Shown here piece after piece: positions 4,561-27,509 of a DNA stretch of 64,000 nucleotides; the first letter of the stretch is position 1, and the number at the start of each line of letters is the position of its first letter. The position numbers were made by a program, and so were the translations under genes. Origin of the DNA: Bolinopsis microptera (lineage: Eukaryota > Ctenophora > Tentaculata > Lobata > Bolinopsidae); contig NC_087080.1 of assembly GCF_026151205.1 (NCBI RefSeq), positions 12,905,337 to 12,969,336 of the forward strand, read 5' to 3'. Under the pieces are notes generated by a model. That model worked only from the letters and a program-made list of their open reading frames with translations, was not told the DNA's origin and made no database searches.

Positions 4561-4790
4561 TTTGGTCTTGATTTAATTGATTACGTAACATGTGGATTGT
4601 GCGGCACCAAATGGTAACCTTATGGTAACGTTATGACTGTCTTGCTCTTTAAATAATTATCGCCTTTAATTTTACCTATCATCTCATCAGATACTTTCCA
4701 ATGATGATGATCACAACAAATTCCTTTTAGAATGCAATTCTTATCAAATAACGGAGTAGTTCGCTGTTTATTAGTCTCATGATTGAAATA

Positions 4791-5060
4791 CTGATATCTG
4801 GATATTATCCGGTTGGAAGAGACAAGGACAAGTGAAACAAGGAAGTTAGGAGTAAGGGCAAATTTTCGGCGTCAACGCCATCTTCAGGCTCAAATTATTT
4901 GTTATATAGTAGTGTTGAAAGTATTAAAACTTTCAACACTACTATATAACAAATAATTTGAGCCTGAAGATGGCGTTGACGCCGAAAATTTGCCCTTACT
5001 CCTAACTTCCTTGTTTCACTTGTCCTTGTCTCTTCCAACCGGATAATATCCAGATATCAG
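4791..5060. repeat. 270-bp palindrome centred on the shared 41-nt leader
   Basis: Left and right arms of about 130 bp are near-perfect reverse complements. The left arm contains the complete 41-nt leader in reverse (4889-4929); the right arm repeats its last 34 nt forward (4929-4962). The centre reads GAAAGT, six bases ATTAAA, ACTTTC. Beyond the leader each arm carries about 98 nt of a sequence not seen elsewhere in the window (CCTGAAGATGGCGTTGACGC onward). A direct 12-bp repeat AATGCAATTCTT occurs just outside (about 4731-4742 and 5063-5074) and could be a target-site duplication. The arrangement fits a cDNA that reached the 5' end of a leader-bearing transcript and primed back on itself. 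Confidence 0.85.
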
Positions 5061-5355
5061 TAATGCAATTCTTCTTAAAATGTTATATAGATTTATCTTA
5101 GAATTAACATCCACATTACATGGTAATATAAGGAATAACTCTCTCTGGAAGAAACGCTTTACTAGGGTTCCTTAATTTATAACTTTTGATATTAGGGAAA
5201 ACAAAATGTAGGGAAAAAATTTAGGGAAAACAAAATTTAAATTTGATTGCCATTACAATGACTATTAATATATTAATCAATATCAATATTGCACTTTATC
5301 GTGGAAACAATATTCATATCATATCTATATCTACTGATATCATATAATATATATA

Positions 5356-8313: not shown

Positions 8314-8354
8314 TTTTAATACTTTCAACACTACTATATAACAAATAATTTGAG
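8314..8354 (+). promoter_or_regulatory. Shared 41-nt leader at the 5' end of LINE A
   Basis: Begins TTTTAATACTTTCAAC and ends AACAAATAATTTGAG, identical to the leaders at 20111-20151 (minus) and 27469-27509. The next bases (GACCCCGAAAC) are specific to this element. It is read here as a spliced leader captured when a trans-spliced LINE mRNA was reverse transcribed to its 5' end. Confidence 0.75.
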
Positions 8355-8419
8355 GACCCCGAAACTTCTGAGTTATACATCATAAAAGATTTTATATCTG
8401 TCTCCATCCTCCCAAAAGA

Positions 8420-9837
8420 ATGGTAGATCCCGATCAAAACTCAGAGGGGCTGGACTCCTCAAATCATGTCTTACAGGGGCAACATGACAATGGTAATGAT
8501 AATGACAATGATGATAGTGCCAGCCCCCCTTGTTTTGTTGTGAACGATCCACGTATGTTAGCTGCTGATGGAATCTGCAGAAACTGCTCGTTCGATTCTA
8601 AAGGAGAAGTGGTATGTTGTTATGAATGTAAGAGCAATTTTCACGCTACTTGTTATGAAATAAAGGACGGTAAACGTGTTAACTTTCCTGATAATGTATG
8701 CTTCCCGTCCTTACTGAAATCTTTCAATGCTAACACTGAATCAAAACAGAAAGGTAAACGTTTTGGAAGTTTCCTCTTCCATTGTGACTCTTGTGTTACA
8801 TATAAGCAAACCTGAGAAACGCTGCTGATTTGAAAACCCATGTACACACCCTTGAAACAAAAATGTCAAAACTAGATGCTGACATAGACACCATTAAAAA
8901 TCTCTTGTTAAATCCTGCCACTCTTCATGGATTAAGTTTGACCGCAGGAAACTGTTCCATATCACCAACCCTTTCACCAGTTAATAATAACCATGAAACT
9001 GGTGGCTCTAATGGTGTTGTCGAAAATCCCTGGCGTGACAGCAGCAGAGTAGAAAAACTGAGGCATCCAGCTTCAGTAATAGTCTCTGAAGGGGGAGAAA
9101 AAGTTCCATTATCTGACCTTAAAACTATTATCACAGAAAATAACATTTTTGTAGATAATACCTTCGAAAACAAGAAAGGTGAGACAGTTATCACCACATC
9201 TAGTCAAGCTGATCGAACAAAGCTAGTTCAATCTATCTCCAAATAATTTCCCAAATCTGATCTCAAGCAACCTATAACCAAATTGCCTACAATATCCATT
9301 TCCGGGATTAGAGATGAAATCACACCCGATGATCTCTTTGAAACCATTATGAAATTTTACCCTGACATCAAGTCCCTCATTGATTCTGGTGAAACATTCT
9401 CTGTACTCTCAGTCCGCAAACAACGAAATTATCAAACAGAAAAACCACTGTTTCAAGCTTCTGTTAGAGTGAGCAATGCCATAAGGAAGCTAATCGAAAA
9501 TCGTGACAATTTCCTATCGATAGGTTTGTACCGCTGCAAGGTGTATGATCACTTTTACATCAAACGATGTAATAAATGCCAAAAGTTTGGTCATTACTCA
9601 GCCCAGTGCCAAGCATCTAACCATGTCTGTGCTCATTGCATTGAAGATCATGAAACTAACTCATGTACAAATAAAGACACACATTCCTTTCAACCCTCCT
9701 GTGCTAACTGTAAAAATTCTAAGAGAACTGATGAACAGTACCCACACTCAGCCACAGATAGATCATGCCCAGCCTATATCTCTGAACAGCACAAGCTTAA
9801 GCATTCAATCTCATATTACACCCAAAAAAACTGGTGA
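8420..9837 (+). pseudogene. LINE A ORF1 (PHD-like plus CCHC knuckles), frameshifted
   Basis: Three consecutive open segments (8420-8815, 8830-9246, 9283-9837) together make a non-LTR retrotransposon ORF1. The first has an acidic Asn/Asp-rich N-terminus and a PHD/RING-like cysteine cluster (CRNC, CCYEC, HATC, CDSC). The second is charged and linker-like. The third has a fold resembling an RNA-recognition domain followed by CCHC-type knuckles (CNKCQKFGHYSAQC and CAHC). Such proteins bind the element RNA. Stops or a frameshift between the segments show decay. Confidence 0.85.
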
Positions 9838-10107
9838 AGAACAAGACTGGAGTTAAGAGCCTTAGTATGAAATGTGCAAGCTGGAATGTTCGCTCTCTAA
9901 ACAACAAAGTTGACCATGTTATGAACTTTTTAGAAGATAACAACATATCTATTTTCTTTGTTACAGAAACATGGCTAACTGATGAGAACAACAACACCAC
10001 TGCAACAATAAAAAACTATGGCTATAAACTTTACCAATAATCTACAAATCATGTGTTCGTCTAATCAAAGTTTTTGCCAACAATGACGGATCATTTGAGG
10101 CAATTAA
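9834..10107 (+). pseudogene. LINE A ORF2, start of endonuclease (interrupted)
   Basis: Encodes CASWNVRSLNNKVDHVMNFL and VTETWLTDE, the N-terminal motifs of the AP-type endonuclease of LINEs. After a stop near 10038 the homology continues to GSFEAI at 10107. There a TTAA-flanked transposon interrupts it, and the same reading resumes at 21358. One of three parts of a single LINE. Confidence 0.85.
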
Positions 10108-10324
10108 AGGACCAGTTAACTGAAAAAAAAGTTATCCTCATATTTTGACAGATTGTGACAAATAGCAAACTAAGCAACGAGTCGAAATTCCTAAATCTCT
10201 AACTGCTCTCTAACGCGTGTAAATAGCGTTTGTATTATTTTGGCGATGACGTCACGAAGTCCCTTGCGCGCGCAGAGGAGCCCGTGAGACTGTATTTTAC
10301 AGGTAGAAAATGGACATAATACAA

Positions 10325-10790
10325 TGTTTTTCCCCGAATAACTCGAAAAGTAAGTAATTTAGGGTACATGTTGCTTCATAAGTTGTATATAAACATGGCC
10401 ATTCTGCACAATTTGCACACATTTAAAAACCTTTAGGGCCTTCATAGCTCAATTTACCAGATACCCATAGTTTTGCATGATTTCTGGAACCGAAAATCAG
10501 TTTTTCGCCAATAACTGAAAAAGTAAGCACTTTAAGGCTTATGTTTGTTCGTAAGTCATATGTTAATATGCTAATTGCGGTTCTTTTGCACCCTGTCTAA
10601 AGACTCTATCACAATCCTATCGAAAATGGGCTCAGCACCACGCCCAAAATGGTTTTTGGCGAATTTCTCGAAAAGTATGGATTTTAGGCCATGTGTTGCT
10701 CAATAACTCCTATATAAACATGCATATGTGGCTTCGTTTAAGCCTATTTTGAAGTCTCTACGACCTTCAGAAGCAAGGGGTCGGTTACGT
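10325..10790 (+). repeat. Three degenerate ~160-bp tandem units in the TTAA element
   Basis: Each unit opens with a TTTTTC/GC..AATAACTCGAAAAGTA motif (near 10328, 10501 and 10654), then AT-rich sequence with TATAAACATG-like words and a purine-rich end. The units are 150-175 bp apart and have diverged considerably. Confidence 0.65.
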
Positions 10791-11254
10791 TATTGGGTCA
10801 ATATGGGCGTGGCCCTCCTGGGTTTTCTCCACTGTCAAAAAAATGTCTCCAAACGAAAATCGTTTATTCATACCTTCGGGAAGGTCTGTGCAAAGTTTCG
10901 TTAGTATCTGAACATTTGCAGGTTCATTTCCATAAATGTCCAAAAATGACTGGACTGCACAACTTTAGAGTTAACTTTAGAGAAACTCATAAGTCATTTA
11001 TCTCAAATTAAGCTGTTAGTGTCCATGATCAACCTGTGGCGACAATGTTTTACGTGAAATGTAAAAATCAGGAGTAATATAAAAAGTGTATTTTTAGATT
11101 AAAGTGCTAGCTCATAGTTTTAGAATTGTATAGATTAGCGTTGGTCGTTTAACTTTAACCATCTAACAATCGATCGTGCCGTAATATATGGCCAAAGAAT
11201 AATAGGGTCTTGGAAGTTCTATAGTTGTTCAGTGGGTCGATCGACTGAACACGG
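10791..11254. other. Interior of TTAA element, no gene seen
   Basis: Remainder of the left part of the transposon up to the point where LINE B homology becomes clear. The exact 5' junction of LINE B could not be placed, but lies between about 11100 and 11290. Confidence 0.4.
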
Positions 11255-13867
11255 TTGCACTTGGTATTTAAACTTATCATCCCACTTATATCACTGGCAA
11301 CGCACCATAAACCAGGCTGTGTCCCATCGCTTATTGTCAATATTCTGACAAACTCCACTGACAATATTGTGTCAGCTGGACTACTGGATACCAGGGTTTC
11401 GCATCACTCTCCAATTTTCTGTATTCTCGAATGTAGCATGCCTGAAGAACCAGAACTTGACCCTTGTAAACCAAAATACGACTACTGTGAATCTAATATG
11501 ACCAAGTTCTTAGAAGATATTCAAACAAATTTTTGTGGGCAGGTGTGCTACAACGTAGAAAACTTTGAAATTTTTGCAAATAAGATAAAACTTTTGATCG
11601 AAGAAAACTTTTTAATTGAATCTGAATCGTTCAAAAAGTCAAAAAGAAATATGATTGCAAACCCTTGGATCACACCAGGGATCATTGCATCAGTGAAAAA
11701 GAAAGAATATCTTTACAAGCAGTGGAAGAGTACAATTAAGGAACCCAACCCTCTTGGAGACTCTGATCTATACTTAACCTATAGTAAATTCCGTCGACAG
11801 TTAAAATACATTATCAGATCTGCCAAGAAATTGTACTATTGCAGAAAATTCTCAAAAGTCTCAGGTAATATGAAGCAAACATGGGCACTGATCAATGAAC
11901 TGAGGGGAAAAACAAAAACTGGAATAAAGGCCTCGTTCAAAATAGATGGTAGTTTAGTAAAAGACAAGCGTGTCATATCGAATGGCTTTAACATGTTCTT
12001 CTCTTCCATTGCAGGTAAACTTAATGCGAAGCTCTGCTCCTCCAAACCAATAAGTCGTGACACAGCTTGCCAGAGGCCCCTTAATTATAAGAACTACTTT
12101 AACAAAAGAGTTACCAACAGTATGTTCTTAAACCCCTGTGATTCTGAGGAAATCGAAAAAATTGTTAAAACCTTCCAGGGTGACAAGGCTAGTGACATAT
12201 CAATAGCTGTTCTTAAGAAATGTTGCACTACAATCTCTAAACACCTAGCTGGTTTCCTAAACTCATTCATGAAGCTGGGTCTATTTCCAAATATTCTAAA
12301 AATAGGTAAGGTCACCCCCGTATTTAAGAAAGGAGACCCACAGCTGTTTGATAACTACAGGCCTATATCCATTCTACCTATCTTTGGTAAGATATTTGAA
12401 AAAGTAATTTACTGCCGACTATATAGCTTCTTTACTTCACATATGGTCATATACGATAAACAGTTTGGATTCAGATCCAACCACTCAACGGCACATGCCA
12501 TCAATTACTCCATTGACCACATTCTTAAAAACCTAGAAAGTAAGAATCATGTAATTGGCATATTCATTGACTTAAGCAAAGCGTTTGACACAATCGACCA
12601 CAGAAAATTACTTGTCAAACTTGAACACTATGGCATAAGAGGGCCCTGTCTTGACCTAATTGAAAGCTATTTGTGTAACCGACAGCAGTATGTTGATTTC
12701 CAAAATACACACTCTGATCACTGCAAAATTGAATATGGGGTACCACAGGGATCAGTTCTAGGCCCTCTCCTCTTCTTACTCTACATTAATGACATTACCA
12801 ACTCTAGCAAACTTGGACACTTCATACTGTTTGCAGATGACACGAACATATTTGTTGCTGGAAAAACTGAACAAGAAGCCTATTTGAATGCTAATAAAGT
12901 ACTTGAATCTGTAAATGACTATATGGAATCTAACTTGCTGCACATTAACCAAAGCAAATCGGTCTACATGTTATTCAGACCTGGCCGGTACTCGTCCTGT
13001 GCACGTGCTCGTGAATATGGCTCTGAGAACTCACTCACGTTATCAGGCAACACGCTTACACGAGTAGATAAAGTGAGATTCCTTGGTGTTATCATAGACC
13101 ATGAACTATCCTGGGAACCCCAACTAGATAACATAAAAAGTAAACTAACTACAAGTATAGCTATAATTAAACGTATTATGAAGTTTATTCCAGAAACAGA
13201 GTACCATAAGCTGTATGACTCCTTATTCAAGTCTCATATGAGCTACTGTATCAGTAGCTGGGGTGGTGTCACACCTTATAGACTATCTAAACTGTTCTCC
13301 ATCCAAAAAAGATGTGTACGCCTTCTATTTGGAAGCAAACCAAGCTTTGACCGGGCAGAGTATTATGAAACATGTGCACGTGCAAGACCATACAGTGAAC
13401 ACATCGCAAAAAGGAGCTTTGCTTTGGAAAACACTAAGCCAATATTCAATACCGAGAAAATCATGTCAATCCACAACCTGTACACCCAACATATATCCAC
13501 TGAACTGTTTAAAATCTTGAAACTGCATCAACCTATCTCTCTGACAAGTTTATTCCAAACAAGTTCCAGAGCATGTAGCCAAACTATGCGGGTCCCCCGA
13601 CACAAACTTGAAATTTCTAAACACAATTTTGTCTTCAAAGGTACGACTATATGGAACAGTTTGGTTGATAAAATATTCGACAAATGCACTCCTAATGAAA
13701 ACAATGTCATGGTCCCTGGCTCTAGTAAATTTTCCGACCTTTCCTCCCCCATCTCAATTATCAAGAGCCGTATCAAAAAGCTCTTACTTGAAACCCAGCA
13801 ATTGACAACACCTGGGCGTGAAATTGAGTGGCTCCCCCTAAATAGCTGGGGCATTGAACCAGCTTAG
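11255..13867 (+). CDS. LINE B endonuclease/reverse transcriptase, 5'-truncated but open
   Basis: An 870-codon open frame covering the end of the AP-type endonuclease (HHKPGCVPSLI, RVSHHSPIF), a linker, and a complete CR1/jockey-type reverse transcriptase. RT signatures include NYRPISILPIFGKIFEK, FIDLSKAFDTIDH, GVPQGSVLGPLLF and the catalytic FADDT. The thumb and C-terminal region follow. The annotated ATG is not a native start: ORF1 and most of the endonuclease are missing, as expected for 5' truncation during target-primed reverse transcription. A second truncated copy of the same family is at 22881-24968. No internal stop, so the insertion is fairly young. Confidence 0.9.
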   Translation: MHLVFKLIIPLISLATHHKPGCVPSLIVNILTNSTDNIVSAGLLDTRVSHHSPIFCILECSMPEEPELDPCKPKYDYCESNMTKFLEDIQTNFCGQVCYNVENFEIFANKIKLLIEENFLIESESFKKSKRNMIANPWITPGIIASVKKKEYLYKQWKSTIKEPNPLGDSDLYLTYSKFRRQLKYIIRSAKKLYYCRKFSKVSGNMKQTWALINELRGKTKTGIKASFKIDGSLVKDKRVISNGFNMFFSSIAGKLNAKLCSSKPISRDTACQRPLNYKNYFNKRVTNSMFLNPCDSEEIEKIVKTFQGDKASDISIAVLKKCCTTISKHLAGFLNSFMKLGLFPNILKIGKVTPVFKKGDPQLFDNYRPISILPIFGKIFEKVIYCRLYSFFTSHMVIYDKQFGFRSNHSTAHAINYSIDHILKNLESKNHVIGIFIDLSKAFDTIDHRKLLVKLEHYGIRGPCLDLIESYLCNRQQYVDFQNTHSDHCKIEYGVPQGSVLGPLLFLLYINDITNSSKLGHFILFADDTNIFVAGKTEQEAYLNANKVLESVNDYMESNLLHINQSKSVYMLFRPGRYSSCARAREYGSENSLTLSGNTLTRVDKVRFLGVIIDHELSWEPQLDNIKSKLTTSIAIIKRIMKFIPETEYHKLYDSLFKSHMSYCISSWGGVTPYRLSKLFSIQKRCVRLLFGSKPSFDRAEYYETCARARPYSEHIAKRSFALENTKPIFNTEKIMSIHNLYTQHISTELFKILKLHQPISLTSLFQTSSRACSQTMRVPRHKLEISKHNFVFKGTTIWNSLVDKIFDKCTPNENNVMVPGSSKFSDLSSPISIIKSRIKKLLLETQQLTTPGREIEWLPLNSWGIEPA

Positions 13868-14827
13868 TCAATCAGCATCCCATCCCTTGCATACAACTAA
13901 TTACAAAAGCGCTAATTATACCTGTTTCAAAAGCATCCTGTCTGGAAGTTCCCTGACTGCCGTGTGAATCTTTGGATCTATTTTTGGATCTATTTTTATA
14001 TTGATATGATTTTTATATACCTATATATTCCTCGCATAATTTCCATGTCCGCCTGAACAAACCTGGCACCATCAAATCTTACTCTAGAAACCCCAGAACT
14101 CATCAAGCCTAGTCTGAATTCAAAACTAGTTGACCAGCTACGTACAGTTTTTTTTGATTGAAATAAATTTTCGTGCACTGTATACAGAATGAATGGTTAA
14201 TAATTTAATATATATGTAGACCAAGGTCTGTGCACGGGATGCTTCCTGGAAGAATCCAGTTCTTTTAGCGGGGCACCCTACCTAAAGCCAAATTGAGATA
14301 TAATAATCATATTCCTAAGAAATAATCAGAAATCGAATACCAATCAAATAATATGATATATATGAGTAGTAACCATATTTACTATGCAAAATGCCCCAAC
14401 CACATAGTGTAAATTTATATAGAATTCAAATTCCATATCATCATTAAACCTCAATACCTAGTCAATATAACAGCCCAAGCAAAATTAAATAACTTCTTAT
14501 ATACCTTACTGTCATACTACAAATTAATTAAACATTTGAAATCTGTTGACCAGAGAATAAATTTCTAAGCCTAATGCAAGTGAAATAATTTAGATGCAAT
14601 ATATAATAATGAATGCCTAATGTGAGTATCATTTGTCAATGTCCTTGTAAAAAAGTCTGTACAAGAGATATGAGTAACTAATATAGAAGAAAAAACAGGA
14701 AGTTGTCGTCTGTTGTAAAATAAATAAAATATCTAGAATATAAATTAGAATATAAAATAACATTCAGTCAATGTGTCGTCAAAAAACTGTACAATTATCA
14801 AATGTTAAAACTGGGTGATACAGTCAC
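13868..14827 (+). other. LINE B 3' region and junction with LINE C, no gene seen
   Basis: AT-rich sequence following the LINE B stop; its start is presumably LINE B 3' UTR. No coding frame. The junctions with the residual TTAA element and with the LINE C 3' end could not be fixed. Confidence 0.4.
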
Positions 14828-15071
14828 CAAAAAAAAAAATACTAAGTATGATAAGTTAATAAATTAAATGTGGTCTATAAAACTACCACTAAGTATAATA
14901 GGTCAATAAATTAAAAGTGGTTTATAAAACTACCACTGTGGGAACCCCTTCTCCAGTTAAAACATGTCAGTCATGTGCAAAATCAATCAGAATGGTAAGG
15001 TGGTAAAAAAGGGAATATCTTTTCGATACATCAATTATATATGCCTCAGATTTAAAAGAATTAGAAGTTAC

Positions 15072-18047
15072 TTAGTTATCGTCGACTATGATTGCAGTGT
15101 AAAATTTTTCATATGAATTGTCGGCGGTATAATTAGGGTCTGTTGTTATAGATGATAGTAGCTGTTTCTTATACGAATCACTAAAGCTTTTAACATCGGG
15201 CAGATTTCGTAGATCTGTTGGAACATTATTCCAACATTTTGCCCCCAAGTATTGAAAGTTTTTATGTGATGTTGATCTATTGACATAAAGGTTGCAGCTT
15301 TCGCCGCTCCTACTACCTCCTGATATGTAACTAAATTTGTTCATAAAGTTTGTAGGACAATTGTCATGGATGATTCTAAACATATAATTTGACAGATGGA
15401 GTTGTCGTCTAAGATGGAGTGGTAACCATTTCATGTCTCTATAAACATTAAGGCTGCTCTCTGTTTTTGGAACGTTGAGAGCTATTTTGGCTACCTTTTT
15501 GTACAGAGTGTCAAGTTCAGCAAGTTTTGTCTTGCCAGCTCTACAATAGATCGTGTCTAAATAATCGAATTGTGGCAACATGAGTGCATTGGCAAACATT
15601 TTCCTATATTTAATGGGTAGCAGTGCTTTACTTCTATACATGGCACCAATTCTCTTCATGACCTTCCTAATAATATAATCTACATGGCTTTTGAAGTTTA
15701 ATTTACTATCTAGAATGAGGCCAAGATATTTTGTCTCTTTGCACTCCTTGATTGTGAAAGTTACCTCATTACAATCAATGGTTATTTCATCATGTTGGTC
15801 AACAGAATCAAACAATAGGAATTCAGTCTTCTTTTCATTGAGTGATAATTTATTAACACTGAGCCATTTAAAGATTGTCATAAGTTCTATTTTCATGTTT
15901 ATAAATGTGCTTCTGCAGGTTTGATCAAAGAATAGTGCACCATCATCTGCAAATAGAAAGGGCTTAGATAGGTTACAGGCATAAATGATGTCATTTATGA
16001 AGATACTAAATAATATAGGCCCAATGATGCTTCCTTGTGGTACACCACTCAGAACTTCTAAAAATGAGCTTAGATTGCCATTGATCCTAGTGCATTGATA
16101 TCTACAAGATAAGAAGTTCTTAAACCAGGTTAAAGCAATGCCACCAATTCCATAATATGCCAATTTTTGAAGCAATATTTCATGATTCACTGTGTCAAAG
16201 GCCTTCTTAAGATCAAGAAAGATGATTCCTGGTTTATAAGACTTAGATTTACTCATATATATTTCGTCCATCAGATCGTACATCAGATAAGTTGTGGAGT
16301 GATTTTTCCGAAAGCCATATTGATGCCCGATGAAAAGTTTGTTCTCTTCCATGTAATCAGTGAGTTGCTTGCCGACAAAGTATTCTATAAGTTTTCCTAC
16401 AAGTGGAAGGATGGATATTGGCCTGTAATTATTAGGATCATCTTTCATTCCTGCCTTATGGATGGGAGTTACTCTAGCTTTTTTACAAAGGGTTGGTACA
16501 ACACCTGTATTAAGGCTCAGATTGACAATGTGGGTCAGTGGCTCAACTATGTGTGGTACAGCTTGCTTAAGTAAAAATAGAGGCACATTGTCATATGAGG
16601 CCTTGTCATTCTTGAGCGTTTCGACATACATTAGGATATCAGTTTCATTTATTTCTTGGAATCTATCAAATGAGATATTAGAAGTTCTAGGAGGTAAAAA
16701 ATCAGTAAAACTAACTCTTTCAATATTGGGGGCCTGATTTTGTAATCTTGATCCAACATTTGCAAAATGAAAGTTAAATAGCTCAGGATCATTCTCATTG
16801 ATAGTTTGACAATTAGTTGTACCAGGGGTCATATTTGATGCCAGTTTGATAGTTTTCCATATCCCTTTAAGATCATTCTTGGCACTTTTAACTTGTAGAT
16901 CATCGATTACATTAGCCTTTTTGCAGGTTTTAGCTAATTTATTTCTAATATTTCTCTGAATCTTGTAGCAATCCCAGGCCTCATTACACTTTATACATTT
17001 GCTACATGTACCACATTTATTGCAATTTCCATTGTCTCTCTTATCCTTCTTTTTACGGAATTTCTTTAGAAGAAAATGTGTATGATTAATGGCATTTAAA
17101 AGTTCAGTAGAAGGTTTATGTATGAACTTTTCATGCCTTTCTATGGTCTTGCAAGGGAAGAAGGTTGCATATGCCTGTTCAATATGGTGACAAAGGCCAG
17201 CAGTGATAGCTTCAACATCTGTACTTTCCAATAGTGGACTGTAATCAGAACAGGTATCTAGATAGTCTAAGAATTGTTTAACATTACGTTTACAATGATT
17301 TCTAATTTCAACCTTCTCAAATTTAGGAGCTATAGGTACTTTACAATCTATCTCACACATAATAGCTTGATGATCTCCAATACGTTCATCAAGAACAGAA
17401 GATTGGACAAAATCTGCATAACAGTTAGTGAATATTACATCAATAGTAGTCTGGGTAAAATTGTCTCCACGTTTAGCAACTCTAGTTATCCCTTGAATGG
17501 TTTGAACTAGATTGTAACATCTCAAGGTCATATCTAATTTTTTGTACTGGGTGGATGAGATATCATTCTGGTCAATGTTTATATCCCCAATCCAGATAAC
17601 CTTTTTCCCATTCAATTTTTTCATGCAAAAATGAATGTATTCAATAAAGTTATCAACACTGCAATAATTTCCAGAGCGATAGAAGCAGCAAACATTGATC
17701 TTGCTATTCTTAAGCTTCACCCATAATGCTTCAATGTTATCAAGCTTACTATCCATAACTAATTCTGTGTAAGCTAGTTTTTTGTTTATCATTAAGCCAC
17801 AACCACCCCTAGAACTGTTTGGCCTGTCGCATCGCATAAGGTTGAAGGAGGAAGGAATATTTATGGTGTCTGTGTCAATAGTATCATTAAGATTCATCTC
17901 ATTTAGGGAAAGTATGTCTAATTTATGATCTCTAATAAGTTGGGAAAGTTCATTACTTTTAGCTAAATTGAGAAGCCCTCCTTGAATGTTACAATGACCA
18001 ATGCAGAGGTTGTGAAACCTATCAGCTGCATTATTAAAATTTGTCAT
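15072..18047 (-). CDS. LINE C ORF2: endonuclease and reverse transcriptase
   Basis: A 991-residue intact protein. The AP-endonuclease domain fills about residues 10-230 (GHCNIQGGL, LSLNEMNLND, GGCGLMINK, WIGDINIDQND, GDHQAIMCEI). A cysteine cluster CNKCGTCSKCIKC sits in the linker at about 340. The reverse transcriptase follows, with NYRPISILPLVGKLIEY, IIFLDLKKAFDTVNHE, GVPQGSIIGPILF and catalytic FADDG. The C-terminal thumb ends in the usual LINE motif W.NVPTDLRNL. It would nick target DNA and prime cDNA synthesis from it. The frame starts 155 nt after ORF1 with its own ATG. Confidence 0.93.
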   Translation of the reverse strand: MTNFNNAADRFHNLCIGHCNIQGGLLNLAKSNELSQLIRDHKLDILSLNEMNLNDTIDTDTINIPSSFNLMRCDRPNSSRGGCGLMINKKLAYTELVMDSKLDNIEALWVKLKNSKINVCCFYRSGNYCSVDNFIEYIHFCMKKLNGKKVIWIGDINIDQNDISSTQYKKLDMTLRCYNLVQTIQGITRVAKRGDNFTQTTIDVIFTNCYADFVQSSVLDERIGDHQAIMCEIDCKVPIAPKFEKVEIRNHCKRNVKQFLDYLDTCSDYSPLLESTDVEAITAGLCHHIEQAYATFFPCKTIERHEKFIHKPSTELLNAINHTHFLLKKFRKKKDKRDNGNCNKCGTCSKCIKCNEAWDCYKIQRNIRNKLAKTCKKANVIDDLQVKSAKNDLKGIWKTIKLASNMTPGTTNCQTINENDPELFNFHFANVGSRLQNQAPNIERVSFTDFLPPRTSNISFDRFQEINETDILMYVETLKNDKASYDNVPLFLLKQAVPHIVEPLTHIVNLSLNTGVVPTLCKKARVTPIHKAGMKDDPNNYRPISILPLVGKLIEYFVGKQLTDYMEENKLFIGHQYGFRKNHSTTYLMYDLMDEIYMSKSKSYKPGIIFLDLKKAFDTVNHEILLQKLAYYGIGGIALTWFKNFLSCRYQCTRINGNLSSFLEVLSGVPQGSIIGPILFSIFINDIIYACNLSKPFLFADDGALFFDQTCRSTFINMKIELMTIFKWLSVNKLSLNEKKTEFLLFDSVDQHDEITIDCNEVTFTIKECKETKYLGLILDSKLNFKSHVDYIIRKVMKRIGAMYRSKALLPIKYRKMFANALMLPQFDYLDTIYCRAGKTKLAELDTLYKKVAKIALNVPKTESSLNVYRDMKWLPLHLRRQLHLSNYMFRIIHDNCPTNFMNKFSYISGGSRSGESCNLYVNRSTSHKNFQYLGAKCWNNVPTDLRNLPDVKSFSDSYKKQLLSSITTDPNYTADNSYEKFYTAIIVDDN

Positions 18048-18202
18048 CTTGTGAATCTTATTAATTCACAATGGAATGAATAAAAGTTGTAAAGTTGTGT
18101 TTAAACTAAAAAACAGAATAAAAGCAGGTTGTATTTGTCTGGATGTCGTACTGTAAAAATAAAACTGATGGTATGAGTGTTATGTCAGTATTCAGCAGTA
18201 TT

Positions 18203-19855
18203 CTAATGGTGTGCATGATACTTCAAGTGCCTTGCTAATTTAATTATGCCATAATCATTGAGATGGACATTATCCTCTCCATAACTACTAAAAAATGACG
18301 ATTTTCTAAAGCCTTTCTTATCACTAAACAAGAAACGATTTGTCTCGGTTGAGAGCAGTTTTACATAGGTGTATTTTCTTTGCAGATTTGATATACACTC
18401 ATTGATATCAGTTATAACCTTGTTTCTGGAGAAACTCTCCCGAGGTAATAAGTTAACAATTTTAATATCAGCTCCAGGTGCCCACTTGTGAAGGAAAAGT
18501 ACAAGTTTTTCAATACAATTGTTTGTAAAGTCAAGAGCTCTAGCATCACCAGAAAAACTATCAGGGCACAGAAGTTTAGTCCTCATGTTGCGAGGGCTGT
18601 TCAGGATAGAGTCCACGTCATTTGTACCACACATAAGTACAATGCTTTTCACATTATTGGTATTAAGAGTGTCTTTTCTTACATCTGATTGAAACCGTTC
18701 ATTGATTGCATTGGCTGTGGCACCAGGGTAGCTGAATACATGTGCCTCATGATGTTTGGACGATAGCTTTTCTCCCTCTAATTTGGAGAACATACTAGAG
18801 CTAATGTAGACACACAAAGATTTACCAGAATGTTCTATTGATCTAGTCTTAGGGGCCGAGGGTTCAGTGTTCTTAACTTGACTGGAAACATCAGACAGAG
18901 TAGATAGGGTTGCGCTGCCATCAATTAGGCGCAGAGTAATGCTTATTCTCATGGTTTCAGACTTGTCCTGGATGAGGCTGTGTTCAAAGCTGGTCTGGGA
19001 TTGTCTGGTCATATTCATTATGTCACCATGGGAGAGGGTGAGGTCAGCAATATGAGCTCTAAGTTTGGATCTGAAGCTTAGGACTCTAGTAGCCCCTAAA
19101 GAGATGGTGGAGATCATGGAGCCTGGTGAAATTGACCTCTCGTCATCCGAGTGAAAGGGAATTCCTTGCTGACCATTTCTATACTTGGTAATCATAGCAC
19201 TATTGAATTTCAACTTTGGGAACTGTGAGCGTAAGTGTTCTAAAATAGACTTTAGGTATGGATTGTCTGCTACTGGCCTTGTGTTATGAAAGCCTCCATT
19301 GTAAGCGTAGGGAAAGTCCCCGTAATATGCAACTGCCCTATTCTCAAACTTATGAGTATAGTGGGTTTCTATATCTAACTTGGCAGTGTCAACAAACTGA
19401 AAAACTCCTCGACTCAAATCTTGGTATGGATTGATAGAGTTGGTCACATCATTGTCACCATTTACAGAGTGTTTGGGATTTTCCAAATTGATAATTTCTG
19501 CTGAATGTTCACTGTCTTCTGCTAATTTGGATAGCTCTTGGGTTAACTCAGAAACAAGATGCGAGGATGACCTATTACTGAGGGGAACATTGATAGAATG
19601 TTCACAGTGATCAGGTACCTGGGGCAACACAGGGATAAGTGAACCATCGCTGAGGGGAACTTTGAGTGCACTGTCACTTTCTGATAGTTGTTTATAGAGA
19701 AAAGAAATTTGCCGACGAAGACTATCATTCTCTCTTAATAGAGTTAAACAATTTGAACATTTATCAGTAGGACAAGAGCCGTTGCTGGGGAATTTAACAG
19801 AATTCCCTCGATATCTCAGATTGTAATGTCTTGAGCCAACTGGTATTCTAGACAT
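18203..19855 (-). CDS. LINE C ORF1: AlkB-type dioxygenase fused to SGNH hydrolase domain
   Basis: A 550-residue protein. Residues about 28-60 have CPTDKCSNC followed by Leu-rich heptads, probably a small zinc/coiled-coil multimerisation region. Residues about 165-312 form an AlkB-like 2-oxoglutarate/Fe(II) dioxygenase: H235-x-D237 in GIPFHSDDE, ISLGATRVLSFR, distal H292 and R303-x-S-x-T-x-R309, the complete iron- and cosubstrate-binding signature, closest in style to ALKBH2/3. Residues about 345-548 look like an SGNH/GDSL hydrolase: a Ser-rich block I at 352-354, GTND at 410-413 and D528/H531 in EDNVHLNDYG. SGNH domains occur in some CR1/L2 ORF1 proteins; an AlkB partner is unexpected. By family analogy the first domain could demethylate alkylated RNA or cDNA of the element. 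Confidence 0.9.
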   Translation of the reverse strand: MSRIPVGSRHYNLRYRGNSVKFPSNGSCPTDKCSNCLTLLRENDSLRRQISFLYKQLSESDSALKVPLSDGSLIPVLPQVPDHCEHSINVPLSNRSSSHLVSELTQELSKLAEDSEHSAEIINLENPKHSVNGDNDVTNSINPYQDLSRGVFQFVDTAKLDIETHYTHKFENRAVAYYGDFPYAYNGGFHNTRPVADNPYLKSILEHLRSQFPKLKFNSAMITKYRNGQQGIPFHSDDERSISPGSMISTISLGATRVLSFRSKLRAHIADLTLSHGDIMNMTRQSQTSFEHSLIQDKSETMRISITLRLIDGSATLSTLSDVSSQVKNTEPSAPKTRSIEHSGKSLCVYISSSMFSKLEGEKLSSKHHEAHVFSYPGATANAINERFQSDVRKDTLNTNNVKSIVLMCGTNDVDSILNSPRNMRTKLLCPDSFSGDARALDFTNNCIEKLVLFLHKWAPGADIKIVNLLPRESFSRNKVITDINECISNLQRKYTYVKLLSTETNRFLFSDKKGFRKSSFFSSYGEDNVHLNDYGIIKLARHLKYHAHH

Positions 19856-20110
19856 AGTTTATCACAAAAAGATGCTACTGTTCGAAATTTAGTTAATGAT
19901 TACAGTACCTTTGTAGCACTCCGGAGGATAAGGATAAGTGATGTCTGATAATCTTTAGGTGATAGATGGGAGTAAACTGCTTTAAAAACCGATGTCTGAT
20001 AGTCCTTAGGATGTCTTTAAGATAACTTTATCGTGCAACAACCATTTACATTGACATACAACCTGTAATGGTCGTTACATTTACCGAGGCATTAGTTCCC
20101 ACTGGGGGTC

Positions 20111-20151
20111 CTCAAATTATTTGTTATATAGTAGTGTTGAAAGTATTAAAA
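20111..20151 (-). promoter_or_regulatory. Shared 41-nt leader at the 5' end of LINE C
   Basis: Exact reverse complement of the leader at 8314-8354. On the element strand it is followed by GACCCCCAGTGGG, which differs from the sequences after the leader in LINE D and in the palindrome. Marks the 5' end of LINE C. Confidence 0.75.
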
Positions 20152-21184
20152 CTCCTGGACAGCTGGAACCTTTTGGGCCATGCACAAGCCAATAGCATGT
20201 ATGGTCCTGCAGTGGGGTCTCCTTGTCCTTGGATCTGTGTTTTGATCCGTCTTTTCTTAAAATTTTCCATTTGTGTCACTTAGAATCACCTTTTAAAATG
20301 TTAATCGACACCACTGGTCCTAGTTAAATTTAGCCATGGCACGATTACTCGAACGTAACAGTTAAATAGGTGTGACATACTATTATATTCTTATAATTAT
20401 ATCATATGAATTGATTGCACTGCTAATAAATAAAATACTTTGTTTTACTAAAAAATACTTTGTTTTACTTACCAGTAGTTTATTTATGTTATGTACCGAT
20501 GATAATGCAATTAGGATAACAACTAGGTAAGCCGCAAGTCTAATTCAAAACACACCGCACACCGTACACTCGAACTCCAATCTGTATTACTATTTGGTAG
20601 ACCGGGTATTTTGGCGGGAATTCTGTTCCCACGGCACTGTTCTGATAGAAGCTACTTCTACTGATGGTCCCAACTCCCAGAGGAACGGCCGTAAAGTAGC
20701 CAGACTTCTTGTCTCCTGTACTGGCTGACACATGCGGATTAAAATTAGAAATTTCGCTATGCTATAAATATAATTGCTCTCGGAATTGAACAAACTCCTA
20801 CTTATCTAGATCCTTTCTAAATTCGTTAGAGTTTCATGGACTGGGGAAAAATAATCGGTACAGTCTCCCTGCTGGCTGCTTGTGTAATTAAGCAATGAAA
20901 ACAATCCGAAATTATCACATATGACATAAGAACTGTAATAGCAGAAACTTTCTAACCGTACATTCACCCGCCACTGTTCAAGAACCTATATCACTGTTTA
21001 AAATCATGACGTGAGCACTGTATATCCAATCAGCTATTCCTTTAGTTAGGATGATAGCCAAAACTATAAGGATTTGGGAGAACTAGGGTAATAGTCATAA
21101 TTCTAAAATTTGAGTGAGTTACATGTGTTTTAATGACAACGATAAACATTTGCAACGTATTAGTATTACGCTATATGCCAGCGC
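20152..21184. other. Right interior of the TTAA element, no gene seen
   Basis: Non-coding remainder of the DNA transposon between the LINE C 5' end and the right subterminal repeat. Short open frames of 60-70 codons show no similarity to known families by eye. Confidence 0.45.
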
Positions 21185-21357
21185 GCACTGAGGGACTTCG
21201 TGACGTCACGAGGCCACAGCTTATTATTGCAATAACACGCGTTACACGTACGCTAGAGAGTTGGTTCTTTCGGCGATACGATTCTTTACCAGTTTGTCAC
21301 AGCTGATTTAAATCTTAGCCAAATTGGAGACTACAAATTTTTCAGTTAACTGGTCCT

Positions 21358-22880
21358 TTAACGCAAAACTGAAACTCGTTGATGGGTCTGTCGTCTTCTG
21401 CTCCTGTATCTACCGTCCACCTGGGTCCTTGGGAAATTCCCTCTCTGATTTTGAAGATTTCCTGGCGGATGCATTCTCAAAATACAAGCATTTCTTGCTA
21501 TGCGGAGATGTTAATATGCACCTAGACAGAATCTCTGCCCATGTGAGCGAGTGGAGCACCATACTATCATCTTTTGGGCTTCATCAACTTGTCTACTCAC
21601 CAACACATAAAAAAGGTCACATCCTTGATCCTGTTATTTCTTCGCACAAAGTAGTAGATCAAACTTCTGTTGAGGTAATGCAAAACATGGCCAAAAGCTT
21701 CCCATCCTGTGACCACTATCCCATTATATTTCAGCTTCATAAGCCTCCTGACATCGACAAATGTGAGAAAGTCATACGCTTTAGAAAGATCAGAGACATA
21801 GATCAGGAACAATTTAAAGGTGATTTATCTGTTGCTCTATCTGAGTTGGTTTTTGAAGAAAAGAGCTTCTCTGATGTTGTGAATCAATTTAACAATGGGT
21901 GTCAACATATACTAAATGTACATGCTCCAGAATATACCAAAACCATCAAAGACATTCCCACTGCTCCCTGGTTTGATGGCGAATACAAAGTTGCAAGAGC
22001 CGACAGAAGAAAGGCTGAGAAAGCCTGGAAAAAGTCAAGTCTCGAAATTGATCATTCTATCTTTGTTCATTTGCCAGAGCACTGTTCAGAGCTGACTCTC
22101 AAAAAGAAAAAACTGTTTTTCTCTAATACTTTCCAAAAATACAAACACTCACAAAAGAGCCTTTACAAATTTGTAGACACTTTCCTGGATAAAGAAAAGA
22201 ACCTCACTTTACCATCTTCAGAAAATCTTCAGGAAACTGTAAATGCCTTTAACCAGTATTTTACTGAAAACTCTTGTCAGAGCACCTTGAGCTAATCCTT
22301 CCTACCCTTTGTGATATTATCAACGTTTCTCTTTCAACCGGAAGTATGGAGGGAATCAAGTTAGCACATCTCACTCCCCTGATCAAAGGAGATTCCCTAG
22401 ACACTGAGAACTTAAAGTATTATAGACCCATCTCTAATCTTACATTCATCGGTAAACTCATTGAGCGCTTTGTATTAAAATGCCTCAATGAACATCTAGC
22501 CAAGAATAATCTCAACATCGACCACCAGTCTGGTTACAAAAAGCATCAAAGCACAGAAACACTCCTCATTACCATAGTCAATGACCTCCTCATAGCCACT
22601 AATGAAAACACAGCAACAGTTGTAATGCTTTTAGACCTGAGTGCTGCATTCGACACAGTTGACCATATCAAACTGATCAATATATTGAAGTGTGAGATTG
22701 GGATTGCGGGAACAGCCTTGAAATGGTTCACCAGCTTCATCCGTGGTCGTTGTCAAAAAGTCAAGATAGGTGACCTAGAATCTGAAGAAATTGTAATAAA
22801 GTTTGGTGTCCCACAGGGCTCTGTCCTTGGCCCTGTGTTGTTCAATATCTACATCCGCTCAATTTACTCTTCTGTAAAAT
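21358..22880 (+). pseudogene. LINE A ORF2, middle part (endonuclease end and RT)
   Basis: Continues the frame broken at 10107: AKLKLVDGSVVFCSCIYRPP and LLCGDVNMHLD are endonuclease motifs. A frame change with an apparent deletion of RT finger sequence occurs near 22270-22290. RT motifs YYRPISNLTFIGKLIERF, LLDLSAAFDTVDH and GVPQGSVLGPVLF follow. The reading stops at 22880, where a LINE B copy is inserted; it resumes at 24969. Confidence 0.9.
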
Positions 22881-24968
22881 CAAAGCAATTTCTGATCCTG
22901 ATATACTTAAGACTGGCAGAATCACACCTGTCTTCAAAAAAGGTAATCCAGAAGAAATAGAAAACTACCGTCCTATATCCACCTTGTCCATATTTGGCAA
23001 GATATTTGAGAAAATCATATATTCTAGGATTTATTCGTTTGTCAGCTCTCAGGGAATAATATCTAAGACTCAGTTTGGTTTCAGGCAATCGCACTCAACC
23101 TCCCATGCAGTAAACTACTCTGTTGACCTCATATCTAAGCACATCAAATTGAAGCACCATGTGTTAGGCATATTCATCGACCTCAGCAAAGCTTTCGATA
23201 CTATAGATCACTCAACATTACTTACCAAACTAGAAAGGTATGGCATCCGTGGCGTGGCAAACGATCTGATCAAGAGCTACCTAACTAATCGATTTCAGTA
23301 CACTGATGTTGTAGGAGAAAAGTCCGACCTACTTCCAATAAAATTTGGGGTTCCCCAGGGGTCAATTCTCGGACCCCTTCTATTCCTACTTTACATAAAT
23401 GATATCTCTAATAGCTCTAGCTTGGGATCGTTTGTCACCTTTGCGGATGACACCAACATATTTGTTGTTGGTAAAACTGCACAAGAAGCATATGAACGCA
23501 GCAACGCCCTACTTTCAAACCTTCAAACATACATGCGGGCTAACAAGCTTCACATAAACATGTCAAAATGCTGCTACATTCACTTTAGACCTAAGTCACG
23601 TACTGAAGCAAACGTTGAAGAAGAATTCATAATGAATATAGACAACTACCCCATCAAAAGAGTAACGTCAGCTAGATTTTTAGGAGTCGTCATTGACGAA
23701 AATCTAACATGGGAAGAACATATAATAGCCCTAAAACGAAAGCTTAACCATGCCACCTCAACTCTGTGTCGTCTACGCTGCTCCCTCCCAGAATTTCTCC
23801 ACAGACAGTTATACTACACTCTTTTTGAATCCCATCTGTCGTACTGCATATCAGCATGGGGTGGGGCAGCTAAAAATCGTATAAGCTCAATATTCACTGC
23901 ACAGAAGTACTGTCTGAGGGTCTTGTTTGGTGATAGAGCAGCCTACCTGGATAAATTCAAAACGTGTGTTCGAACCAGACCATTTACTGACCAGAAACTT
24001 GATAGTAAATTCTATAAAAAGGAGCACACTAAACCTCTGTTTAAAAACAACGAGATACTCACAGTACAAAATCTTTATACTTACCATAGCTACATAGAAT
24101 TATTCAAGATCATGAAGTTTTCTACTCCTATGTCTATGTACGAAGAGTATTCTCGTTCTTCCAGGAAACCAATGCTTATTATCAATAAACCGGATCCCCC
24201 AGACAACCATAACACGAGGTCAACGAAAATATGGAATATAATAACCCCTAACCTTAAAATCCTTGATTGTTCTGTTAGTATTTCTTGCCTGAAATCCAAA
24301 CTGAAATCTTCACTACTTTCCAACCAGCATTGTCATGCCGTGTATGACTGGACAAATAAAGACTTTGATATTTGTAACCTTAAATTTTCGTAGGCTCCTG
24401 CAGGGATTCCACCTGACCTCCAAAATTTCATGACCAAATCGACATACTCTGCCAGCGTATTCCTCTGTCAAGTTAAATGTGATGTGTGAGTGAGTAAGTG
24501 TAGTGTAAAGAGATCCTATTTTTATATCCAATTTGAATTCTAATAAAGACCCTAAGCATTATGATCAAATTTTTAGTACAATAGTTATATCAGGGTTGAC
24601 ATCTATGATTAATATTATAACCCAATATTCATTTCTTTTTCTCCCTTAAATTTAAACCCCCGGCCCCCATTGAACACCCAAAATACCTACCGTCCTTAAT
24701 AATCGTAAAGACCATTTGTTACAAAATAGCTGCTAGAATAATGCATGCCAAATATAATTCCCTCCAACACCCACAAATTATAATGCCTTCCTATCAACGC
24801 CTCTAATTTGGTCATTAATCAACCAGACTAGCGTTTTGGTGTGTACAAAAGCTACCAGCCAGTACATTCCTTGCCCCGCTAGTTGATTGTCAAAAAATCA
24901 TACAGCTCAGAACAAACGGCCATTTACCACTAAGAGCATTATATGTTTTCATTTGTTTAAATTTTATG
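22881..24968 (+). mobile_element. LINE B, second 5'-truncated copy inserted in LINE A
   Basis: A 2.09-kb insertion flanked by a 9-bp target duplication CTGTAAAAT (22872-22880 and 24969-24977), interrupting LINE A just before its RT catalytic YADD. It carries a continuous frame from about 22882 to 24393 and about 575 bp of 3' UTR. Confidence 0.88.
22882..24393 (+). CDS. LINE B reverse transcriptase fragment
   Basis: Open from the insertion junction with no native start. It begins in the RT finger region (TGRITPVFKKGNP, ENYRPISTLSIFGKIFEK) and includes GIFIDLSKAFDTIDH, GVPQGSILGPLLF and catalytic FADDT. It continues through the thumb to a C-terminal KIWNIITPNL region. It is clearly homologous to the frame at 11255-13867, sharing for example the AFDTIDH and FADDTNIFV blocks, but diverged, so the two are separate insertions of one family. 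Confidence 0.9.
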   Translation, partial: KAISDPDILKTGRITPVFKKGNPEEIENYRPISTLSIFGKIFEKIIYSRIYSFVSSQGIISKTQFGFRQSHSTSHAVNYSVDLISKHIKLKHHVLGIFIDLSKAFDTIDHSTLLTKLERYGIRGVANDLIKSYLTNRFQYTDVVGEKSDLLPIKFGVPQGSILGPLLFLLYINDISNSSSLGSFVTFADDTNIFVVGKTAQEAYERSNALLSNLQTYMRANKLHINMSKCCYIHFRPKSRTEANVEEEFIMNIDNYPIKRVTSARFLGVVIDENLTWEEHIIALKRKLNHATSTLCRLRCSLPEFLHRQLYYTLFESHLSYCISAWGGAAKNRISSIFTAQKYCLRVLFGDRAAYLDKFKTCVRTRPFTDQKLDSKFYKKEHTKPLFKNNEILTVQNLYTYHSYIELFKIMKFSTPMSMYEEYSRSSRKPMLIINKPDPPDNHNTRSTKIWNIITPNLKILDCSVSISCLKSKLKSSLLSNQHCHAVYDWTNKDFDICNLKFS

Positions 24969-26665
24969 CTGTAAAATGTGCTAAAACTTTGATTATTTGT
25001 TTAATTGAAAAATTGATCCATGGCTATGCTGATGATCACCAGATCTACAAGTCATTTTCATCCGCTACAGAATATCAAGTCCTCAGCGAAGACCTGCCCT
25101 CCTGTTTTAGAGAAATCGAGACCTGGATGACGAATCACTTCCTTCTTCTGAATCCAACTAAAACTGAAATTATAGTTTTTGGTTCAAAACGTTTATTGTC
25201 AGAATTAGAAATTGGTGGTGTCTTCCTAAAATCTTCTGTCTGTATAAGACTTGTTAACGTTACCAAAAACCTTGGCTTTACATTGGATTCCTCTCTGACT
25301 CTAAATCCTCAGATAAAGAAGCTTAAAGCTGCAAACAGCCACAAGATGCGGAATATTGCAAAGATGAAACCATTCCTCTCTGAAGATCAAATGCAAATCA
25401 TCGTACAATCTCTTGTTATTAGTTCCCTTGACTACTGCAATGCACTTTACTATGGTACTAATCATTTTGTTTTGAAACAGCTACAATCTCTGCAAAACAG
25501 AGCATGTCGCTTAGTTAAAGGTCTAAAGAGGAGAGAAGAAGTTGAGCCCTACATAAAAGAACTTCATTGGCTCAAGGTACAAGAACGTATTGAATTTAAA
25601 ATACTCCTGCTAACTTTCAAACTGCTCCATGGACTAGCACCTCCATACCTGTCAAACCTTGTCAAGTACAATCCCAGTGGTGGCAGAGATGTGTCTCTTC
25701 ATTGCCCTATAAACAGTCCACCAAGAGCCTTCTCTTCATCTGCTCCAAGATTATGGAACAACCTTCCTCAAGAAATCAGGAAATGTGTAAACATCAATGA
25801 CTTTAAGGGAAAACTAAAAGCTCATCTGTTTAGAAAGTCCTTTGATATGTACTGAGTAAATAATACATTATCAGAAGATTTTTAAAATCATCATCCTATA
25901 GCAGGTCAATTTTACGCTTTAAATTAAATTATTTTAGGCTACTAATTTTTCAGGATTTTCGGGCAACATTCGAGATATTGTTATTTTCCGTGTTTCACTG
26001 TGTCTGCCAACAAAATTGTAGTGTAGGTCAGAAAAGGAGGCTCTATCCCGGGACACCAACATTTTTTAGGTTGGCACCCAGGAGAAAGCTGCCTTATTCT
26101 TTGTATTTTGTCTCTAGTATTTTAGCATCTTCAACCACTCTGTTTATTACACCGTCTCTAGACTTGTATGTTGCCCAGATAATTTGACATGACTGTATTG
26201 GATTTTCTGTAACATCAGTTACTGTTCTGCAGTAAGCTTTTTTAATAATTTTGTATTGTATATTGAAGTATTCAGATTGTTTGTATATTTGGAGTTCTAT
26301 AGATTCTTACAGAAATTTTAATATTTTATGATTTTTCATCTTTATTATCTTGTATATCTTTTTGTTAGTCTCATGAGTCTCATACATAGATTTCTTGTGG
26401 TCATCATCTATTTTTCATATGTTTTGTTAGAAAACCTGCTAACCTTTCTTGGATATCTTCTTGTTAAAGGTGTTTCTGCCTTATTTAGTCAGGATTTAAC
26501 TTGCAGCTATAAACTTCCGTTTTTACTCCAGTCCAAGGCGAGATGCACGATCTCTACTGTCATTTAGGTATCATTTACAGCTGAGCATAAGGGTTAAATT
26601 TAAATTATTTAACCTTTTGGTGCTGTATCAAAATAACATTAATTTATTATTATTATTATTATTAA
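24969..26665 (+). pseudogene. LINE A ORF2, C-terminal part and 3' UTR
   Basis: Resumes with VKCAKTLIICLIEKLIHGYADDHQIYK, wherein YADD is the RT active site. Thumb and C-terminal motifs follow (LGFTLDSSL, LDYCNALYYG, LQSLQNRACRL, LHWLKVQERIEFK, APRLWNNLPQEIRK), ending at the stop at 25855. About 800 bp of 3' UTR end in an (ATT)n tail at 26641-26665, typical of CR1/L2-group elements. With the two insertions removed, LINE A runs from 8314 to here. Confidence 0.85.
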
Positions 26666-26809
26666 TGATGGATGATGTTTTCATTACAGTGTCTCCTTCA
26701 ACCTGATACCTGAGGAGAAGAGCTTCGAGGGATTAAATCACTTGATTTAATTCAACTTACATGAGTACTTCTGTGCCCTGCTCGTATGCCTTCTAAATGG
26801 CTTCTTTCA

Positions 26810-26929
26810 TAGATCTATGCTGAAATGGAATAGTCTACCAGTATATATCCGACAGTCAGAGCGGATTTATACTTTTAAGGCCAAACTGATCAAGTACCTT
26901 TGGACTGCCGATACAGTCTGGTCAGATTA
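26810..26929 (+). pseudogene. LINE C-terminal fragment (family H)
   Basis: Reads MLKWNSLPVYIRQSERI then YTFKAKLIKYLW and a stop, the standard last motif of a LINE ORF2. Nothing of the RT is left upstream. The sequence to about 27461 may be its 3' UTR, since its end recurs inverted at 31650-31673. Confidence 0.65.
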
Positions 26930-27468
26930 GCTCATCAGTCTTCTCATATGATTCCCAGAAATGTGTTTTTCGTTGGTTATAATTCTGTCCGTCCGATTTC
27001 CTGTCTGCTAGTCTCCCTATTTTTCTTGTTCTCAGTTGTGACAGAATTGTAATGATCAAAATACTTATAATTATTAATGATATGTTTGATTTCTTGTTAT
27101 TGTTTGTCATGCAAATTTGGTAAACGGCCCAACGTTAATGTGGCTCTTGCTATGTATGGTTCAGCCGAATTAATTATTATGTAATCAAGTTTATTTTTCT
27201 TGTTTAGTTAATTGTCATTCAGCCACACATTAAGCAACTTATATTGCAGTACAATTTATCAATTAGTAAATCGAAATTTAACGGGTGATACTCGTAAAAT
27301 ATTTGTTCGACGAGTCCAACTCGGCGCGCGTCCTGGTAGGTTATAAACCTACAAATCAAAATATATCATTGTAAATTTGCATGGCTGAAATGTAACGCTT
27401 GATTTGAATATATAAAAATTAATTGAATAAATTGCATAAATGTCAAACAGTATATAATTAATTTTTTT
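26930..27468. other. Spacer before LINE D, no gene seen
   Basis: AT-rich. Its last part (27438-27461) is a 24-bp exact inverted repeat of 31650-31673 on the other side of LINE D, followed by a T-run that abuts the LINE D leader. Confidence 0.5.
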
Positions 27469-27509
27469 TTTTAATACTTTCAACACTACTATATAACAAA
27501 TAATTTGAG
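27469..27509 (+). promoter_or_regulatory. Shared 41-nt leader at the 5' end of LINE D
   Basis: Identical to the leaders of LINEs A and C. It ends TTTGAG and is followed directly by GG and the ORF1 ATG at 27512, so virtually the whole 5' UTR of this element is the shared leader. Confidence 0.78.

Follow-up and report, generated by a model that had tools for sequence, protein, structure and literature searches.

Spliced-leader exons at the 5' ends of LINEs in Bolinopsis microptera: genomic evidence suggesting repeated trans-splicing before reverse transcription

Why should three unrelated long interspersed nuclear elements (LINEs) begin with the same 41 nucleotides? The question was raised by a 64,000-nt stretch of contig NC_087080.1 of the ctenophore Bolinopsis microptera (positions 12,905,337 to 12,969,336 of the forward strand, hereafter the window). 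As the first-pass annotation had noticed, an identical 41-mer was found there at 8314-8354 (+), 20111-20151 (-) and 27469-27509 (+), where it forms the 5' ends of LINE A, LINE C and LINE D, respectively; it never occurred in 100 dinucleotide-preserving shuffles of the window. The elements behind it were indeed dissimilar. Pfam found an endonuclease and a reverse transcriptase (RT) in the second open reading frame (ORF2) of all three, yet the ORF2 proteins displayed pairwise identities of 27-28% over their aligned parts, and the Pfam matches of the ORF1 products differed. Sequences also diverged shortly after the leader, since the common 5' stretch was 47 nt for LINE A and LINE C (leader plus GACCCC) and 43 nt for LINE A and LINE D. 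Our results make it very probable that the 41-mer belongs to a host spliced-leader (SL) exon, which would have been put anew onto LINE RNA by trans-splicing before reverse transcription, and this repeatedly.

Spliced-leader genes of the host

The genome searched comprised 264.65 Mb in 232 contigs (C1, C2, C3, C5 and C13 below), and pattern searches gave positions for the first 100 places. A leader borrowed from the cell implies an SL-RNA gene, i.e. the leader followed by GT and an Sm-binding site, and such genes were found in tandem in the genome. The 3' end of the leader followed by GTAAGATTAAG, with its GTAAG donor, occurred at 77 exact sites genome-wide: 36 on C3 (in units of about 591 bp), 12 on C5, 19 and 8 in two clusters on C13, and a single site on C1 as well as on C2. 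Wherever a complete unit was read, its exon measured 43 nt (AG plus the 41-mer) and was followed by an 84-nt rest containing two stem-loops with an Sm-like site, T(C/A)TTTTGG, between them. One incompletely read unit on C13 carried a one-base variant in the exon. 5S rRNA genes lay within the units read on C5 and C13, and none was seen in those read on C3. Judged by its sequence, the 41-mer corresponds to an SL-RNA exon of the host; this SL RNA is named SL1 here. The earlier statement that the copies start at the same base therefore holds for the 41-mer common to all; with respect to the 43-nt exon it has to be refined, the preceding AG being present in the window copy of LINE C and absent from those of LINE A and LINE D.

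The genes of SL3, a leader related to SL1, form a second, 434-bp array on C1 (82 of the 100 matches listed, out of 176; three units read). Here, a GT donor and an 83-nt rest came after the exon, and the rest again had an Sm-like site flanked by two stem-loops. A third leader, SL2, turned up exclusively at the 5' ends of elements. The C3 units matched no Rfam family at the gathering threshold, and in the loci scanned Rfam found no known SL family, the only matches being weak ones to SmY.

According to the available text of a study on Hormiphora californensis (G3 2021, PMC8527503), a leader is carried by 56% of Iso-Seq reads in that species, and genomic leader copies number 718 there and 491 in Mnemiopsis. 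That leader was alignable to SL1 with 39 of 46 columns identical; the genomic copies, in contrast to those described here, are not tied to LINEs in the account. Published chaetognath leaders displayed no resemblance to SL1 by eye, and no match to a 33-nt leader core or to two of its parts was found in literature text.

Leader swaps and splice joints

The genome was searched with LINE body sequences deprived of their leader, and the 5' ends of the copies were then read. Limited numbers of candidates were scored (40 of 65 for LINE C and 40 of 671 in another genome search), and the copy numbers given are minima. All 81 copies read with the body from position 1 displayed a leader, either whole or damaged. 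For LINE A, this concerned 17 places (one of them matching only 30 bases), of which 15 displayed SL1, one SL1 plus AG and one SL3; one copy truncated within the body had no leader. The 30 copies of LINE C, including that of the window, carried SL1 (12), SL3 (15, one damaged), SL2 (2) or a decayed leader (1); the latter copy starts at body position 3 and stands outside the 81, and the count omits seven of eight relatives matching 1-155 as well as three places starting at body position 23 or 47. When restricted to body identities of at least 96%, LINE C still displayed all three leaders (SL1 in 11, SL3 in 14 and SL2 in 2 of 27 copies). LINE D and its relatives, with 35 copies, had SL1 in 31, SL2 in three and SL3 in one. 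Further swaps were observed in two more families, L018 and L037 bearing SL1 vs SL2 in L164, and L011 bearing SL1 vs SL3 in L160. Since 64 of the 81 bodies displayed 96-100% identity with the query (up to 200 bases compared), one leader cannot have diverged into another by mutation.

The reverse situation was encountered among the eight LINE D relatives with only 68-69% body identity. SL1 was present in seven of them, without any change in its last 31-41 bases, and the eighth carried an exact SL3. As far as these sequences tell, the leader does not age along with the LINE body. Both observations bear on the idea that the leader was gained a single time in an ancestral LINE, through trans-splicing or recombination, to be inherited from then on as an ordinary 5' untranslated region (UTR). 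Such inheritance would agree with the presence of the same SL1 on most copies of LINE A and LINE D. It is nevertheless very unlikely, given SL1, SL2 and SL3 on near-identical bodies, two LINE D joints lying 5 nt apart (see below), an undiverged SL1 on bodies 68-69% identical, and swaps in five families (LINE A, LINE C, LINE D, L018/L164 and L011/L160). The swaps on near-identical bodies thus argue for repeated trans-splicing rather than one ancient capture. The first-pass annotation had proposed that LINE mRNAs are trans-spliced to a cellular leader and then reverse transcribed; this proposal gains support from the SL genes and the leader swaps, with the modification that capture gives way to repeated replacement.

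Joints between leader and body were examined in LINE D and LINE A. In LINE D, SL1 was directly followed by GGATGG in eight copies (plus one with a shortened leader), while 20 copies displayed a joint 5 nt away, SL1|TTCAG-GGATGG (plus one with TTCAA). SL1 and SL2 each occurred at both joints, and one older copy displayed TTCAGGCATTGCAG between leader and body. LINE A showed the joint SL1|AG-GACCCC once. TTCAG looks like a 3' splice site. The body was preceded by a leader (whole, shortened or mutated) and nothing else in the 35 LINE D copies. Exchanging SL1+TTCAG for SL2+TTCAG, or the converse, therefore calls for an acceptor located precisely where the old leader ends, ...TTGAG. This points to the old leader's own AG as the putative acceptor. 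The other side of the joint was equally precise: from its 5' part on, the leader was intact as far as TTTGAG, the exact exon boundary, in 472 of 554 copies. Six of the remaining 82, which differ in the last 12 nt, were read, and all of these retained the boundary with one substitution.

The earlier annotation offered as alternative a common promoter or 5' UTR module passed from one element to another, for which recombination or RT template switching between LINE RNAs would be the route. This alternative would account for a sequence common to unrelated LINEs, and a jump is conceivable within the last 5 nt (TTGAG) that the leaders have in common. However, near-identical bodies with three leaders and a LINE D with two or more splice joints contradict it. 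The leader ends exactly where the SL exon ends, SL1 and SL3 have genes of their own, the alternative joints TTCAG/GGATGG resemble splice-site choices and not homology jumps, and no mixed SL1/SL3 leader was seen among the copies inspected. We regard such an exchange as highly improbable. A known case of one short 5' sequence common to LINE, SINE-like (short interspersed nuclear element-like) and other retroelements is Pr77 of trypanosomatids; yet, in the available text of PMC8190864 and PMC4748587, Pr77 activates transcription, yields unspliced transcripts and is not an SL exon.

Two further origins of the leader were considered. U6-L1 chimeras offer a parallel for a LINE RT that switches template during insertion, here from the LINE RNA onto SL RNA, which could attach SL sequence at many insertions. 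This mechanism is hardly credible, as the 84-nt intron part of the SL RNA would be expected often but was absent from all 81 copies in which the joint could be read, the boundary coinciding with the splice junction. Insertion of LINEs into SL-RNA genes, the leader then being target DNA, has a precedent in SL-specific LINEs known elsewhere (SLACS/CZAR, NeSL) but is close to inconceivable here, since the upstream flanks of the 81 copies differ (save two pairs with a common flank) and, as judged by eye, do not contain the upstream sequence of SL genes, the copies are scattered over many contigs, and the SL-gene sequence predicted on both sides of the LINE was not borne out in the copies read.

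A proposed cycle of leader renewal

For this animal we infer a cycle in which transcription of a genomic LINE copy would start at its own leader or at some point further upstream, and the host spliceosome would trans-splice a fresh SL exon onto the LINE pre-mRNA. The leader-bearing mRNA would then be copied to its 5' end by the LINE's own RT during target-primed reverse transcription, and the new genomic copy would thereby begin with the leader. Since the leader ends in ...TTGAG, the inserted copy would carry an AG that might act as 3' splice site the next time. Either the joint would then be regenerated upon replacement of the old leader, or a nearby AG (e.g. that of TTCAG) would be used and the joint would shift. 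In LINE D and two other families, the ORF starts 2 nt after the leader, which makes up nearly the whole 5' UTR there. The broader proposal that these LINEs have built host SL trans-splicing into their life cycle is about as likely as not; in it, the leader encoded in the DNA would be disposable and self-renewing while providing a 5' UTR and its own 3' splice site.

Several observations weigh against repeated trans-splicing as the origin of the leaders. The support for the cycle comes from genomic DNA. No SL2 gene was found among the 100 matches listed, out of 176, in a search that required a GTR donor. Covariation in the SL-RNA stem was weak (one two-sided change, a result equalled by 75 of 500 shuffles), and two of the three SL RNAs folded little better than their shuffled counterparts (z of -0.53 and -1.44, as compared to -2.12 for the third). 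Direct SL1-SL1 tandems numbered zero in the one exact form searched, so that this independent relic mark is missing, although none would be expected if the leader's own AG is reused, because the old leader would be removed in each round. Three copies of LINE A that were compared displayed no target-site duplication. Two pairs of the 81 copies (L133/L142 and L095/L096) shared their flanks and do not represent independent insertions, because they are probably duplications. Finally, not all dispersed leader copies are proven retrocopies, some occurring in tandem repeats or before unassigned sequence.

SL-bearing transposons were previously suggested in flatworms and in Schistosoma; leader swapping and, as an inferred step, acceptor reuse are the new part. 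The available text on flatworms (Mol Biol Evol 2025, PMC12582326) ties 597 discarded leader-containing loci to mobile elements, mainly long terminal repeat (LTR) elements and LINEs. Contrary to the situation described here, it mentions partial leaders only, as a suggestion, and describes neither leader swapping nor alternative joints. For Schistosoma mansoni, the corresponding text (Sci Rep 2018, PMC5832876) mentions six transposable elements with a genome-encoded SL exon that were proposed to be trans-spliced and retro-transcribed, but these are six cases for which the authors leave chimeric assembly open. Dinoflagellate retrogenes provide another likeness, since in the parts available of PMC12014239 and PMC6050394 a genomic SL remnant marks a reverse-transcribed trans-spliced mRNA and the SL is re-added in later rounds. 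The leader lies at the 5' boundary of such SL-tagged retrocopies, as it did in 81 of 81 copies here. The dinoflagellate cases, however, concern host genes with tandem relic leaders, whereas the present ones concern LINEs with mostly complete leaders and no direct SL1-SL1 tandem in the form searched. In Hydra, an SL was recorded at the 5' end of about 30% of transposable-element Iso-Seq reads (Genome Biol 2025, PMC12220107); the account, in its available part, covers the RNA side only and reports no genomic leader at the 5' ends of these elements. The literature accessible to the search, which excluded subscription papers (including Derelle et al. 2010), yielded no description of near-identical LINE copies with swapped leaders or of ctenophore LINEs with leaders at their 5' ends.

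If the cycle is correct, even a copy lacking its own promoter could be brought back to life by whatever transcript arrives from upstream, and LINEs within one genome would come to share a small set of 5' ends. The leaders and splice sites chosen over time would then be recorded, fossil-like, in LINE insertions. The flatworm and Schistosoma suggestions would become a case with internal controls, one LINE body being found with different leaders and joints. The same process may account for the hundreds of scattered leader copies in ctenophore genomes. A further puzzle would be the transcription of a LINE with hardly any 5' UTR of its own.

Dispersed leaders and other features of the window

Exact copies of the 33-nt leader core amounted to 1,095 genome-wide (949 + 146), vs 77 SL-gene sites, and the reversed-pattern control gave none. 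A non-random sample of 66 distinct leader loci (SL genes in two cases) was assembled from exact-leader searches on C1 and C2, from LINE A matches and from the window. By post-leader sequence, 54 of the 66 clustered with at least one other. The sampled dispersed leaders stood before LINE-like or short repeated elements (the short ones of about 140 nt), some before sequence to which no identity was assigned. Among 18 post-leader proteins from the sample, Pfam recognized an AlkB-like domain in three, PHD in two (one below cut-off), an endonuclease, a GDSL and a DDE transposase domain in one each, a weak glycine-rich match in another, and nothing in nine. The base before TTTTAATA was G in 32 of 49 loci (two of them SL genes), against a window background of 0.19 (P ~1e-12 if copies are independent), and many copies therefore extend to or near the presumed start of the SL transcript. 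Three short leader-bearing elements (L055, L056 and L068) displayed direct duplications of 12-14 bp. A hammerhead-like motif (CTGAAGA...GAAA) seen by eye after the leader of short elements was discarded, Rfam giving no hammerhead match at six loci.

Various rearrangements involve the leader. L166, L167, L168 and L169 are tandem repeats of about 100-200 bp in which each unit carries the leader followed by TCAGGGAAGCGG or a close variant. In L004, L023, L144, L147 and L156, the 5' part of the leader is partly duplicated, in direct orientation, just upstream of the full leader, which resembles templated insertions at end joining. Head-to-head palindromes with two central leaders and short fillers or overlaps between them were recorded in L030, L053, L064 and the window. 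The window example (4782-5069) is a short leader-bearing element with its head-to-head duplicate, forming a 288-bp inverted repeat with 98% self-identity, centred on an exact leader at 4889-4929 (-) and one with 2 mismatches at 4922-4962 (+). Such palindromes possibly arose from twin priming or cDNA snap-back. LINE D lies between the arms of a 23-bp inverted repeat formed by flanking sequence (27425-27470 and 31650-31700), and the short element in L057 between those of a 29-bp one, which suggests fold-back synthesis while the 5' end was being joined.

LINE C is encoded on the minus strand. Its ORF1 (18203-19855) carries an AlkB-like 2OG-Fe(II) oxygenase domain (PF13532, 7.3e-19) and a weak GDSL/SGNH hydrolase match under the Pfam cut-off (PF13472, 2.3e-4), and its ORF2 (15072-18047) the endonuclease (PF03372) and the RT (PF00078). 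An AlkB-like domain was likewise present in the post-leader ORFs of L011, L018 and L020, belonging to three other leader-capped families, and might act as an RNA demethylase. No report of such a domain in LINEs was found in the literature searched, the text available mentioning it in plant Ty3/Gypsy elements. In LINE D, the ATG of ORF1 (27512-28441, +) lies two bases beyond the leader. The Cys-rich N-terminus of its product looks PHD-like by eye, while Pfam gave no PHD match and one weak match below cut-off; ORF2 (28525-31488, +) contains the endonuclease (PF14529) and the RT (PF00078).

LINE A (+) is split into three pieces by nested insertions. Comparison with a copy on C1 (C1:7201749) identified a 5' piece with leader, ORF1 and the start of ORF2 (8314-10107, 97% identity), a middle piece with the ORF2 endonuclease and RT (21358-22898, 99% identity in two aligned pieces) and a 3' piece ending in (TTA)n (25014-26662). 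Its ORF1 had no Pfam match. An RT ORF at 11255-13867 was first taken for that of LINE A but, in view of this split, belongs to a separate, nested element. The sequence inserted into LINE A (10108-21357) contains this ORF as well as LINE C, and displays inverted ends (GGACCAGTTAACTGAAAA) with TTAA near both edges.

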